DNA from: Candidatus Poribacteria bacterium
Lineage (GTDB): Bacteria > Poribacteria > WGA-4E > WGA-3G
Direction of reading: 5' to 3'
Length of the DNA: 64,000 bases
Assembly (NCBI GenBank): GCA_022821065.1
Contig: JAJEEK010000050.1
Span: forward strand, 62,001-126,000
Shown: positions 6,436 through 10,658 of the stretch, in pieces
How positions within the stretch are numbered: position 1 is the stretch's first letter
Layout: every line of letters starts with the position of its first letter
Made by a program: the position numbers and the translations under genes
Notes under the pieces: model-generated
The model's database searches: none
The model's input: the letters and a program-made list of their open reading frames with translations, nothing else
What the model was told of the DNA's origin: nothing

Positions 6436-8559
6436 CTATTGTGTCCCTCTCTCTCGTTTCCAAATTGTAATTGCAGCCGGAATCGTCCCTAAAATTAGCA
6501 GTCCGAGACACAACCAAATGGGCCAGACGATAGGTTTATTCCATGCTTGACGACTTCCTGAACGCTGGTCAATATCAATGCGCAGATACTTGAAGTTCCC
6601 ACCCCCCAAAGAACTCGGTTTGTTGTTCTTCAGCCACTGGTGCGATAGACCGAAAGTAACAGGATGATAGACGAAAACCCAAGGCGCGTCACGTTGTAAC
6701 AGACGGTTCATCTCCCGGATACGTGCTAACCGATCCGGTGAGTTCTCCATATTTTTCATATCTTCAAAGAGGCGGTTGTATTCAGGGTTATCGTAGTTCG
6801 CAGCGTTTTCGCCATCGTGTAAGGTTTTACTATTCGGACCGTAGAGAAGGAACAAGAAATTTTCCGCGTCGGGGTAGTCGGCATGCCATCCCCAATAGAT
6901 AATCTGAAAATTCCCGTTTTTTACTTTGTCGCGAAACCGATTGTAATCCGTGGTTCGGCTCTCCATCGTGACACCGATTTGCTCTAATTTGTTTCGCATC
7001 CATGTTAATTGGGACGTGGCACCCGCGGATGTCCATGTATTATCAAAAGAGACGATGAGTGGATTCCCTTTACGATCCTGTCCGCCCGGGTAACCGGCTT
7101 CAGCGAGAAGTTGGCGTGCTTCTTCAATGGATTTTCGGATGGGACGATTCGTGCTTGCATCCCAGTTATAAAGATAAGGGTTAATGCCCGCTTCACCCTC
7201 TTCATAACCAAAGATACCGGGTGGCAACGGACTGTGTGATACAACACCGCGTCCGTTGCGGAAAATCTCAATATATTCTTCGTAATTCAAGGCAATCGAA
7301 ATCGCCTGACGGAGTTTCCGCTTTTCCGGTGTGTACCCGCCAACGGTATCATCTAACATATTGAAAGCGAGATAGATAGTCGTCGGTTCCACACTGGTGC
7401 GCAAGACAATATGTTTTGCTTTCAATTCCTCACTTGTACTCGGATCCCCCGTTTCGTTGAAAGCGATGGCACTATCAAACGTATCTGAGGAGATACCCGA
7501 ACTATCGTAATACCCTTGCAAAAACTTATTCCATCGCGGAATATATTCCTTCTCTAATTTGTAAACAACTTTCGGTATAAATGGAACGACCTCCCACGCG
7601 TCGTCCAGAAGCCCGGCTTCTCTATCCCCAGGTTCGCCACTTGACGGATAGCGTTCCACCCGAAAATTCTCGTTCTTGACGAGAACAATCTCCTTGTGTG
7701 CGAGGAGCGTCTCTATACGATATGCCCCCGTTCCTACAGGAAACCGATCAATCGTGATGTTCCGTTCCTTCATAGCCGGTTGATTGTAAAAATCAATTGC
7801 CTCTTTAGGCATCGGTGAAAAGAACGGCATCGCCAACCAATAGACGAACTGCGGATACTTTGCATTGAGAATAATCCTATAGGTATACCGGTCCACGACT
7901 TCTACACCCGGAAACGGCGCGTCGGCTTGTCCATTAGCGATGGCAGCTGAATATGTCTCCATACCGAGGATGTAATCCGCCAATGTACTGAAAATAGGAC
8001 AGGAGAGCCCCGGATCAGCCATCCGTTTAATCTGGTGGACATAATCATCCGCGATAAGTTCACGCGTCCCTGTCATCAGGAAATCCTTGATCTCGTCAAA
8101 TCCTGAAACATCTGCTCCTTCTAAATCATGGTATCGCAACGCTCCACTTTCAGTTTTAGCAAAGCAGGGGTGCGGTTGATACATAATACCGGGACGTATC
8201 CGGATTTCATAGACAGCCCGCGCTACAGACGCCGCAGGGGCCTCTGATGCCAGCTGCCTTCCGCGAGCATCATAATAACGCGGTTGCGGGACAGCCTCTG
8301 CAGTCAACGGAATCAATGTATAAGGTCGCTTCAGGTAGTGGTATCGCAAAGGCGGTTCATAAATCTGCTGAAGGAACCTATATTCATCCGAACTGTATGA
8401 GATCGCTGGGTCAAAGTGTTTCGGCTCTTCGACAAACGTGCTGTAGTAGATTTCCTCGTTGCGTTCAGACTTCGGATACGGATTATTCGGCACACCACAA
8501 CTGATCAAGAAAACCAGTGCCATGAATGCTATGCAACATCTGCTTGTATACGATGTCAT
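6436..8559 (-). CDS. ABC transporter substrate-binding lipoprotein, family 5 (peptide type)
   Basis: Extracytoplasmic binding protein of the DppA/OppA family, 707 residues, which is long for the family (about 500-600). The chosen ATG at 8559 has AAGGAAG in front of it. From there a lipoprotein signal runs to the lipobox 'FLISC' with C21 as the lipidated residue. Typical family-5 features include 'EPKHFDPAISYSSDE' near the mature start, 'PVGTGAYRIE', 'RQAISIALNYEEYI' and 'WGWHADYPDAENFLFLLYGPNS'. Oddly there is also a hydrophobic C-terminal segment (about 676-697) followed by 'KRERGTQ', so the protein may be anchored at both ends. The operon neighbours are the barrel protein upstream and the permease downstream. 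The ligand is probably an oligopeptide; nickel or other small ligands are possible. Confidence 0.92.
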   Translation of the reverse strand: MTSYTSRCCIAFMALVFLISCGVPNNPYPKSERNEEIYYSTFVEEPKHFDPAISYSSDEYRFLQQIYEPPLRYHYLKRPYTLIPLTAEAVPQPRYYDARGRQLASEAPAASVARAVYEIRIRPGIMYQPHPCFAKTESGALRYHDLEGADVSGFDEIKDFLMTGTRELIADDYVHQIKRMADPGLSCPIFSTLADYILGMETYSAAIANGQADAPFPGVEVVDRYTYRIILNAKYPQFVYWLAMPFFSPMPKEAIDFYNQPAMKERNITIDRFPVGTGAYRIETLLAHKEIVLVKNENFRVERYPSSGEPGDREAGLLDDAWEVVPFIPKVVYKLEKEYIPRWNKFLQGYYDSSGISSDTFDSAIAFNETGDPSTSEELKAKHIVLRTSVEPTTIYLAFNMLDDTVGGYTPEKRKLRQAISIALNYEEYIEIFRNGRGVVSHSPLPPGIFGYEEGEAGINPYLYNWDASTNRPIRKSIEEARQLLAEAGYPGGQDRKGNPLIVSFDNTWTSAGATSQLTWMRNKLEQIGVTMESRTTDYNRFRDKVKNGNFQIIYWGWHADYPDAENFLFLLYGPNSKTLHDGENAANYDNPEYNRLFEDMKNMENSPDRLARIREMNRLLQRDAPWVFVYHPVTFGLSHQWLKNNKPSSLGGGNFKYLRIDIDQRSGSRQAWNKPIVWPIWLCLGLLILGTIPAAITIWKRERGTQ

Positions 8560-8631
8560 AAGTATACTTCCTTGTGTTGTGGCGTGATTTGTTGAACGTC
8601 TCATCATTTTTTCACCAACGAAAACAGTATC

Positions 8632-9711
8632 CTAAAATCCGTAAAGAAGTGTTAATGATAGCAATGGACCGAATTCAAAGGCATCGCTCTCCTCGTATAC
8701 GCCATCCAATAAGGCATCGGTGTCGTCATAGAGTGTCTCTTGGTCTAAAGGGAGCATTACTGATAGAGACAAAGGGAGATCATAAGGCGTTACAAAGGAT
8801 GCTCCAAACGATGCCATACTGAACCGGAGGCCGGTATTGATGTCTTGTTCGCCTGCCCAATACGCGAAAGATTGATAAAAACCGAGGTATCCAGCTTGGA
8901 ACGTAAGCCAATCACTGACGCGATAACTTAAACCCCCTGTGTAAGTAAACTCTCTGGATCCGCGATAGGTCTTGCTATTCTCATAGAACGGCAATTTCCC
9001 ACGGACACTGGCACTCACATTGAGTCCTTTGTAGATAGGCAAACTATAATACAAATCGGCAATCGGATTGAACGTACCCGTACCAAACTGGATATGGAGA
9101 TGCTCAAGTCCGGCATCGCTGAGTTTCCAGGGGTCCTCTTCGGTTTTACCCAATGGAATCGTTGTTCCGACCCGCGCCATCAGAAAATCGTTTTCTCCAA
9201 GCAGTCCTTGCATTCGATAACCTAAAAGCAGATCCACATCGGCAAATCCGATGTAAGTCTCATTTCTATGATGATTGTCGCGATTCCGTATAATCGCTTC
9301 CCACTCCGCGGGCGTGACTGGATCAATCTCTGCAAGCGTCGCCTCCTGCGTTTTCGTCTCGTAGGGTATATTGGCTTCCAGCACCCATTGAGAAGCGAGC
9401 TGATACTTCAATCCGACATCAATCCGAAAGATGTTTAGATTAACGTAGTGTCGGTGCAGTGGGACCTCTATCACGTTCCCTTCTGGTGAAATCCCTTTGG
9501 TTTCCAAGTGTCCGCCTTGCGCGTCAAACCAGCGCATCATACTGAAGGTGCTCTGGAATTTCTTCATTTCTCCTGAAGCCAAACTGACTTCATCGATCCC
9601 GCCACGTGGAATCGCGGGATTGCTTCAGGCACCTCAGCTCATTTGGGCAAAACCGAGCGGGAGAAAAACAGACTGAAGACAGAACAATAGAGCAAGAATC
9701 CGAACCATCAT
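8632..9711 (-). CDS. Outer-membrane beta-barrel protein with two in-frame UGA codons (candidate selenoprotein, or broken gene)
   Basis: Barrel-type outer-membrane protein of 359 codons if the two TGA codons are read. The downstream part (from about residue 44) is a clean series of amphipathic strands ending in an aromatic residue ('LLYGF'), as in outer-membrane transporters. The start is taken at the ATG at 9711, which overlaps the stop of the preceding gene as ATGA. It encodes a good signal peptide (about residues 1-22, ending 'PLGFA'). Three residues later come TGA (9634-9636) and TGA (9625-9627), in the same frame as the barrel and 9 bases apart, giving U-G-A-U. A perfect 7-bp hairpin follows at once. 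Either both are selenocysteine in an exported U-x-x-U motif or the gene is a nonsense mutant. A start at the TTG at 9582 would lose the signal peptide, which makes no sense for this protein. Confidence 0.7.
9596..9620 (-). promoter_or_regulatory. SECIS-like hairpin downstream of in-frame UGA codons
   Basis: Read on the minus strand, ATCCCGC pairs with GCGGGAT (7 perfect base pairs) around an 11-base loop GATTCCACGTG whose first base is G. The loop begins 21 nucleotides after the first UGA and 12 after the second. Bacterial SECIS elements lie immediately downstream of the UGA with a small apical loop carrying an early G. The first UGA fits the usual distance; the second is nearer than usual. 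Confidence 0.45.
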
Positions 9712-10658
9712 AGGGGATTACCATCCGTTTCTAAGTTGAGCCACGCCACTTCAGCCTCAGAGAGCGCAAGTGTTCTCGCACCGAGCGAAGAATCCAGTTC
9801 ATCCAAAGTTACGGGTCCGATAACCGGGAAAACTGGAAATGGAATATGCAAACAGTATGCCAGAGAGACTTGAATCGCGGAATATCCATATTTCTCGCCT
9901 AACTTCTTTGCGCGTGTCAGTCTTTCAAAGTTTTCATCGTTGTAATAGACACGCACCATTTCTGTGTTTTCACGGTTTTCAGGTGTAAATGCCCCACTAA
10001 AAAAACCGCGTGCTTGAGATGACCACGGCATCAAAGGAAACTGGCTCTCTTTATGCCATGCGCGTGCGGCATCGTCCACGCAGACGCAGCCACCCCACAT
10101 CGGTTCCATCGGCACGGCAAGACTAATATTGTTACTGCAAGAGACAAATCCTGCAAGTCCGTTTTCCTCCGCATACGTATTCGCCTCAATAATGCGCTGT
10201 GGCTCCCAGTTAGAGGCAGCAATAGCTCTGATACGCCCGGCACCGATTTCCGTGTTCAGGTAATCAATAATAGTGCTGACCGGAATTACAGGGTCATCAC
10301 GATGGAGCATGTAGAGGTCAATATAGTCGGTACGGAGTCGTGCAATGCTTTCATCAAGATCGGCTTTTAGTTCTTCAGGGGCGAGACGCGGGCGTGGCAC
10401 GCGACCTTGCGGGTGTCCGCCTTTATCAATCAGGTACACCTCATCCCGATTCCCGCGTTGTCGCATCCAGAGACCGATTAACATCTCACTATCGCCGCCA
10501 CCATAGCCGTGTGCGGTATCAAGAGCATTTCCACCCACCTCAAAAAATGCATCGAGCATCTCCGTGCTATAATCGAATTTTACAGGTGAGAGCAACATAG
10601 TTCCCAAAATTAACTGCGATATGTCTTTGCTGACTCCTGGAATCTTTATATGCTTCAT
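9708..10658 (-). CDS. Aldo/keto reductase family oxidoreductase
   Basis: NADPH-dependent cytosolic (beta/alpha)8-barrel oxidoreductase of 316 residues. The catalytic set is visible: D47 and Y52 in 'LDTAHGYGGGDSE', K79 in 'LIDKGG' and the His of 'YMLHRDDP'. The cofactor region is 'PVFPVIGPVTLDELDSSL'. Substrate is unknown. It is the first gene of a minus-strand operon, and its TGA overlaps the ATG of the barrel gene (ATGA), so the two are probably translationally coupled. A TATAAT at 10741-10746 (minus strand) is a possible -10 box about 83 bases upstream. Confidence 0.93.
   Translation of the reverse strand: MKHIKIPGVSKDISQLILGTMLLSPVKFDYSTEMLDAFFEVGGNALDTAHGYGGGDSEMLIGLWMRQRGNRDEVYLIDKGGHPQGRVPRPRLAPEELKADLDESIARLRTDYIDLYMLHRDDPVIPVSTIIDYLNTEIGAGRIRAIAASNWEPQRIIEANTYAEENGLAGFVSCSNNISLAVPMEPMWGGCVCVDDAARAWHKESQFPLMPWSSQARGFFSGAFTPENRENTEMVRVYYNDENFERLTRAKKLGEKYGYSAIQVSLAYCLHIPFPVFPVIGPVTLDELDSSLGARTLALSEAEVAWLNLETDGNPL

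Follow-up and report, generated by a model that had tools for sequence, protein, structure and literature searches.

A candidate family of exported β-barrel selenoproteins with a U-x-x-U motif in Candidatus Poribacteria

Several described proteins resemble the one reported here. The GSU2204/MtrB-PioB barrel selenoprotein (NF041027) is listed in Table 1 of PMC13188914, and the TonB-dependent receptor of the FCYXU type (NF049945; deep-Sep, PMC12013277) is an outer-membrane selenoprotein with a C-x-x-U motif. U-x-x-U or related Sec motifs are also found in the UxxU metal-binding (seleno)protein NF041115 and the MerT/CopZ proteins of NF045683, which are involved in mercury or copper handling. In the canonical bSECIS model, the apical loop is located 16 to 37 nt from the UGA codon, the stem is at least 4 bp, and the energy is -7.5 kcal/mol or lower (PMC13188914). 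According to a review, some bacterial SECIS elements lie beyond this canonical model (model as in PMC13188914).

The gene examined here is located in a 64,000-nucleotide stretch of a Candidatus Poribacteria contig, which we refer to as the window. A preliminary description, made from the letters of the window, had reported two in-frame TGA codons downstream of a signal peptide, in a gene that starts with the ATG at 9711 and overlaps its upstream neighbor by ATGA. All of these features were confirmed when we examined the sequence and its translation. The gene and its surroundings were as follows.

9708-10658, minus strand: aldo/keto reductase gene (Pfam PF00248), upstream neighbor, with the ATGA overlap
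8632-9711, minus strand: whole gene with two putative Sec codons, 359 amino acids plus stop; the read-through homologs are full-length
9646-9711, minus strand: signal peptide, residues 1-22, with a predicted cut after GFA; read from the sequence, with a hydrophobic N-terminus in frame in homologs
9634-9636, minus strand: first TGA, putative Sec codon for residue 26; CPAU, CSAU, and CPAC homologs have Cys here
9625-9627, minus strand: second TGA, putative Sec codon for residue 29; CPAC homologs have Cys here
9596-9620, minus strand: hairpin H1, the one in the preliminary description, with arms 9620-9614 and 9602-9596
9574-9592, minus strand: hairpin H2, the proposed SECIS core, UGAAGUCA-GUU-UGGCUUCA, with loop 9584-9582
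8635-9558, minus strand: β-barrel domain, residues 52-359, from the AlphaFold model, Foldseek matches, and invariant residues and His motifs (HRH, HHR, and HLHIQFG)
6436-8607, minus strand: peptide-type ABC solute-binding protein gene (Pfam PF00496), downstream neighbor

As read from the sequence, the start codon at 9711 and the stop codon TGA of the upstream aldo/keto reductase gene overlapped as ATGA. The translated product began with MMVRILALLFCLQSVFLPLGFAQMS-U-GA-U-SNPAIPRGG and ended after 359 residues, at the stop at 8632. The reading frame was interrupted only by the TGA codons at 9636-9634 and 9627-9625, which were 9 bases apart and were positioned between the signal peptide and the barrel.

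The organism is sponge associated, and its close relatives are Candidatus Poribacteria that are mostly represented by metagenome-assembled genomes. Read-through homologs were found in 67 of 118 related genomes, and nearly all of them had both TGAs at the same codons. The 67 carrier genomes spanned four families. Because the TGAs were found again in dozens of independent assemblies, single-contig chromosomes among them, they were not assembly errors, a source that the preliminary description had considered.

Among 99 distinct sequences, the motif was UGAU in 69, CPAU in 27, and CSAU, UPAU, and CPAC in one each. Genomes related to those of the Gemmatimonadota and Saprospiraceae carriers contributed a second UPAU sequence and four further CPAC sequences. 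The CPAU sequences were a paralog clade with Cys at site 1, CSAU was a single Poribacteria copy, UPAU occurred in the Gemmatimonadota copies, and the five Bacteroidota copies were CPAC and had no in-frame stop. Thus, both sites exchanged with Cys; the homologs had Cys at one (CPAU and CSAU) or both (CPAC) sites. In a quick tree with long branches, whose deep part was unsure, the CPAU copies formed one clade and CSAU was nested in a UGAU clade, which indicated that more than one Sec/Cys exchange had occurred at site 1. Across three phyla, the invariant residues were a Q, then [UC]-x-A-[UC]-S-N-P, plus a set of His motifs.

Downstream of the UGAs, dN was 0.06 to 0.14 and dS was 0.31 to 1.13, and dN/dS in the barrel was about 0.1 to 0.2. 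The barrel is under strong purifying selection. These data bear on whether the gene is a pseudogene, with the TGAs as nonsense mutations and the barrel either nonfunctional or made from a start codon inside the gene. An open reading frame does begin with the TTG at 9582, and some relatives have fragmented copies, but a pseudogene would not be expected to retain both TGAs at unchanged codons across almost all 67 genomes of four families and in the Gemmatimonadota UPAU copies. In addition, the selection was strong, the two sites held Cys and never random residues, and the conserved signal peptide would be lost if translation began internally. The conservation pattern refuted this explanation, which we consider very improbable.

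Fragmented copies of the barrel gene were located at G069:C20:9138-10076, G045:C1:1198170-1198771, and G038:C2:632522-633145. These copies suggested that the barrel gene has been lost repeatedly.

The preliminary description had noted that no sel genes were in the window. The genome to which the window belongs contained all four: a tRNA-Sec gene (76 bits; UCA anticodon) that adjoined selB, as well as SelB (362 bits), SelA (523 bits), and SelD (362 bits), whose coding sequence had a UGA in frame at the canonical site. SelB was also found in the Gemmatimonadota genome with UPAU. A full form of SelB was absent from six Poribacteria genomes that carry the barrel gene, each of which was at most 83% complete, and a SelB search of the Saprospiraceae genome with CPAC yielded nothing above the cut-off. 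The selD gene (L046:1501-2424, which is C4:27473-28396 in the genome of the window) is a selenoprotein gene itself, with the motif KCAGUASK and a hairpin about 15 nt past the UGA.

Stop codon usage and release factors were examined in relation to a reassigned UGA (for example, to Trp). TGA stops were rare in the window (positions 1 to 64000), where TGA ended 1 of 40 ORFs of at least 200 amino acids, namely that of the upstream reductase, and 25 ended with TAA and 14 with TAG. Also, one relative (L029) had a TGA at a conserved Trp. On the other side, TGA ended 92 of 456 long ORFs in the Poribacteria loci and 5 of 19 elsewhere in the genome of the window, RF2 was found in this genome, the residue aligned with the UGAs was Cys and not Trp, and the other conserved genes searched had no internal TGA, selD excepted. 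Thus, the claim that other genes here stop with TGA held for the genome and the Poribacteria loci but barely for the window, and the conclusion drawn from it, that a changed code is unlikely, was sound. Stop usage and RF2 refuted reassignment, which was the least probable of the explanations considered. The scarcity of TGA stops in the window (1/40 versus 92/456) was possibly due to chance. In L029 (G030:C5:4400-5479), the TGA at the conserved Trp was a third in-frame TGA (MMRW to MMR-TGA) and was either a nonsense change or a sequence error.

In summary, several features of a bacterial selenoprotein were found: an in-frame UGA across species, Cys homologs, and SelA, SelB, tRNA-Sec, and SelD. 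The selenoprotein reading of the preliminary description was supported by the Sec machinery in the genome, by Cys at the UGA positions of homologs, and by retention of the TGAs. From these sequence comparisons, the gene almost certainly encodes a selenoprotein in which both UGAs are read through as Sec. The whole CPAU paralog clade and CSAU kept just the second Sec, which raised the idea that Sec is inserted at the second UGA only, with the first read inefficiently, or that the sites use different signals. This idea seemed highly unlikely, because 69 distinct UGAU sequences and the UPAU form retained the first UGA, which would stop translation if it were undecoded.

Synonymous change was suppressed near the UGAs. 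Specifically, codon identity beyond expectation was 0.38 in codons 31 to 45 versus 0.08 to 0.21 elsewhere. The hairpin in the preliminary description, H1, was present as claimed, with 7 bp, an 11-base loop with G first, and a start 4 bases past the second TGA; AUCCCGC (9620-9614) was paired with GCGGGAU (9602-9596). A weaker 5' arm at 9612-9606, with a loop at 9605-9603, provided an alternative register (register B). When H1 was folded alone as a single sequence, the result was not significant (z = -1.34, with 17 of 200 shuffles as stable). Because this fold was unremarkable alone, its significance rested on comparison, in which both TGAs were at the same codons in relatives. In register A, 91.9% of the pair cells were paired and none of 500 shuffles was as high. 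In register B, 84.2% of the cells were paired and the sixth pair was broken in 23 of 37 sequences. Register B was rejected as the main SECIS on account of this broken pair and because many CPAU loops did not follow the G rule.

In the case of H2, 97.3% of the cells were paired, the covariation exceeded that of all 500 shuffles, and the mean stem was 7.78 bp versus 3.87 bp with synonymous codons resampled. In Gemmatimonadota, H2 was GGAGGCCG-GUU-CGGCCUCU, with compensatory changes on both sides of the stem and the loop kept. A divergent Poribacteria clade had an equivalent of H2 with the loop AGUUC, and H2 was missing from the all-Cys Bacteroidota (CPAC) copies. The apical loops were GUU, GUC, or GGU, which is the G[G/U] loop type of bacterial selenoproteins. 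The earlier reading of H1 as a SECIS-like hairpin needs correction: H1 was conserved (91.9%), but H2, located 3' of H1, was far tighter and had the G-U-U loop signature. By sequence comparison, H2 and not H1 is the best-conserved RNA element, with a known bacterial loop signature.

The loop of H2 was 40 nt past the second UGA and 49 nt past the first, and a strict bSECIS scan passed 17 of 98 Sec-form genes and failed the window gene. A scheme with one hairpin per UGA was rejected because the CPAU and CSAU copies, which have a single UGA, keep both hairpins. We tentatively propose a two-hairpin SECIS, in which SelB would read the G-U-U loop of H2 from 40 and 49 nt away, and H1 would fold in between, shorten the path, and switch registers. 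The H1 registers were 8 nt apart and the UGAs were 9 nt apart. H1 folded out in either register might therefore leave H2 about 23 to 24 nt from each UGA in turn. Covariation supported the two-hairpin layout; the register switch was a matter of arithmetic, with an imperfect second register, and the proposal as a whole is less likely than not.

The AlphaFold model was a barrel with a mean pLDDT of 74 and a low-confidence N-terminal tail that bears both Sec residues. In a Foldseek search, the matches were FapF (E of 1.9e-11) and COG4313 (E of 1.6e-9), with TM scores by target of 0.62 to 0.73, which assigned the model to COG4313/FapF-like folds; a thioredoxin fold was not found in the barrel protein. 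The best Pfam match was Phenol_MetA_deg (PF13557) at 17.7 bits, which is below the gathering cut-off of 22. No family model was matched in an NCBIfam search with the window protein (P0001) and ten family members, nothing was found in a PDB sequence search with the family alignment, and the barrel had no match in a catalogue from 2026 that lists 119 families of selenoproteins. In a literature search, two papers paired Poribacteria with selenocysteine, and none paired Poribacteria with a selenoprotein or dealt with this family.

Among 52 UGAU loci examined, an aldo/keto reductase gene was upstream in 38 and an ABC solute-binding protein gene was downstream in 28. The window copy had no adjoining metal genes, and the same was true of most UGAU copies. 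Other members of the family had different neighbors. The operons of two Bacteroidota copies also encoded an ArsR-type regulator, MerTP, MerA, and an HMA/thioredoxin protein, and the MerTP and MerA calls were above curated cut-offs. Two other Bacteroidota copies were near a copper P-type ATPase; also in Bacteroidota, a multicopper oxidase was near two copies and a CsoR-type repressor was at one. CusB, two OEP genes, and a YHS protein were found in 18 of 26 CPAU loci. In the genome of the window, YHS-like and OEP-like ORFs came after the paralog (C19:30855-31868) and filled the rest of the contig. In all 26 CPAU loci, the paralog was preceded by a small ORF for a Cys-rich membrane or exported protein, which had no Pfam match (e.g., L176:10197-10634 and L132:5386-5802). 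The Bacteroidota mer-type operons (L195:1924-6984 and L196:4565-9644) contained an HMA/thioredoxin fusion and a CPAC barrel, which are apparently an undescribed mer accessory pair.

Because homologs were located in mer operons or by genes for a copper ATPase, multicopper oxidase, or CusB, the U-x-x-U motif probably binds a soft metal. As the window copy had no adjoining metal genes, its function is less certain than that of the family. A redox role was also considered, in which U-x-x-U would be a thiol/disulfide-type catalyst at the outer membrane that is reduced by a thioredoxin-like neighbor. Consistent with this role, an HMA/thioredoxin-type gene adjoined all five Bacteroidota (CPAC) and both Gemmatimonadota (UPAU) copies, redox function is common among U-x-x-C/U motifs (PMC13188914), and the gene upstream in the window encodes an oxidoreductase. 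However, those same neighbors have HMA metal domains, the operons are of the mer or Cus type, the barrel is rich in invariant His, and the barrel protein yielded no thioredoxin fold. We view the redox role as less likely and slightly favor a soft-metal role for the family. The selenoprotein and the soft-metal role taken together, with most of the weight on the selenoprotein, form a probable explanation.

In our working model, the gene product would be an exported outer-membrane β-barrel selenoprotein. tRNA-Sec and SelB would decode both UGAs under the direction of the conserved two-hairpin element just 3' of them. Cleavage of the signal peptide would leave a short N-terminal tail (Q-x-S-U-G-A-U-S-N-P) in which Sec is near positions 4 and 7, and this tail would lead into a channel of the FapF/COG4313 type. 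At the mouth of this channel, the U-x-x-U pair would probably serve as a ligand or exchange site for a soft metal, either Hg(II) or Cu(I), with the invariant histidines as further metal ligands.

These results add a predicted family of selenoproteins that escapes annotation, since the gene is truncated at codon 26 and the export signal is lost. The putative Sec pair is located in the N-terminal tail of a channel in the outer membrane, and genes for mercury resistance and copper efflux accompany relatives of this channel. This association suggests a use of Sec in the handling of soft metals at the outer membrane. The RNA element is kept between phyla, yet it lies beyond the standard spacing. 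The UGAU, UPAU, CPAU, and CPAC forms provide a clean natural series in which to examine SelB recognition of distant hairpins and the decoding of two UGAs spaced 9 nt apart.

As for the described systems, GSU2204/MtrB-PioB is likewise an outer-membrane barrel with Sec, but it has one Sec rather than U-x-x-U, and its model (NF041027) was unmatched. The FCYXU receptor shares the outer-membrane location, but NF049945 was also unmatched and the fold here is nearest to FapF/COG4313 and not to a TonB receptor. The NF041115 and NF045683 proteins share the type of motif and are HMA type or MerT type, whereas the protein here is a barrel; these models matched the neighboring MerT/HMA proteins weakly, below the cut-off, and did not match the barrel. 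The FapF and COG4313 channels (5o67 and 4rl8) are the closest solved folds, but FapF, COG4313, and PF13557 differ in that identity is 10 to 13% and the sources compared document no Sec or Cys pair there. Thus, this appears to be a new bacterial selenoprotein family with good computational support. Outer-membrane selenoproteins are known and U-x-x-U is known; relative to the sources compared, the combination is new.
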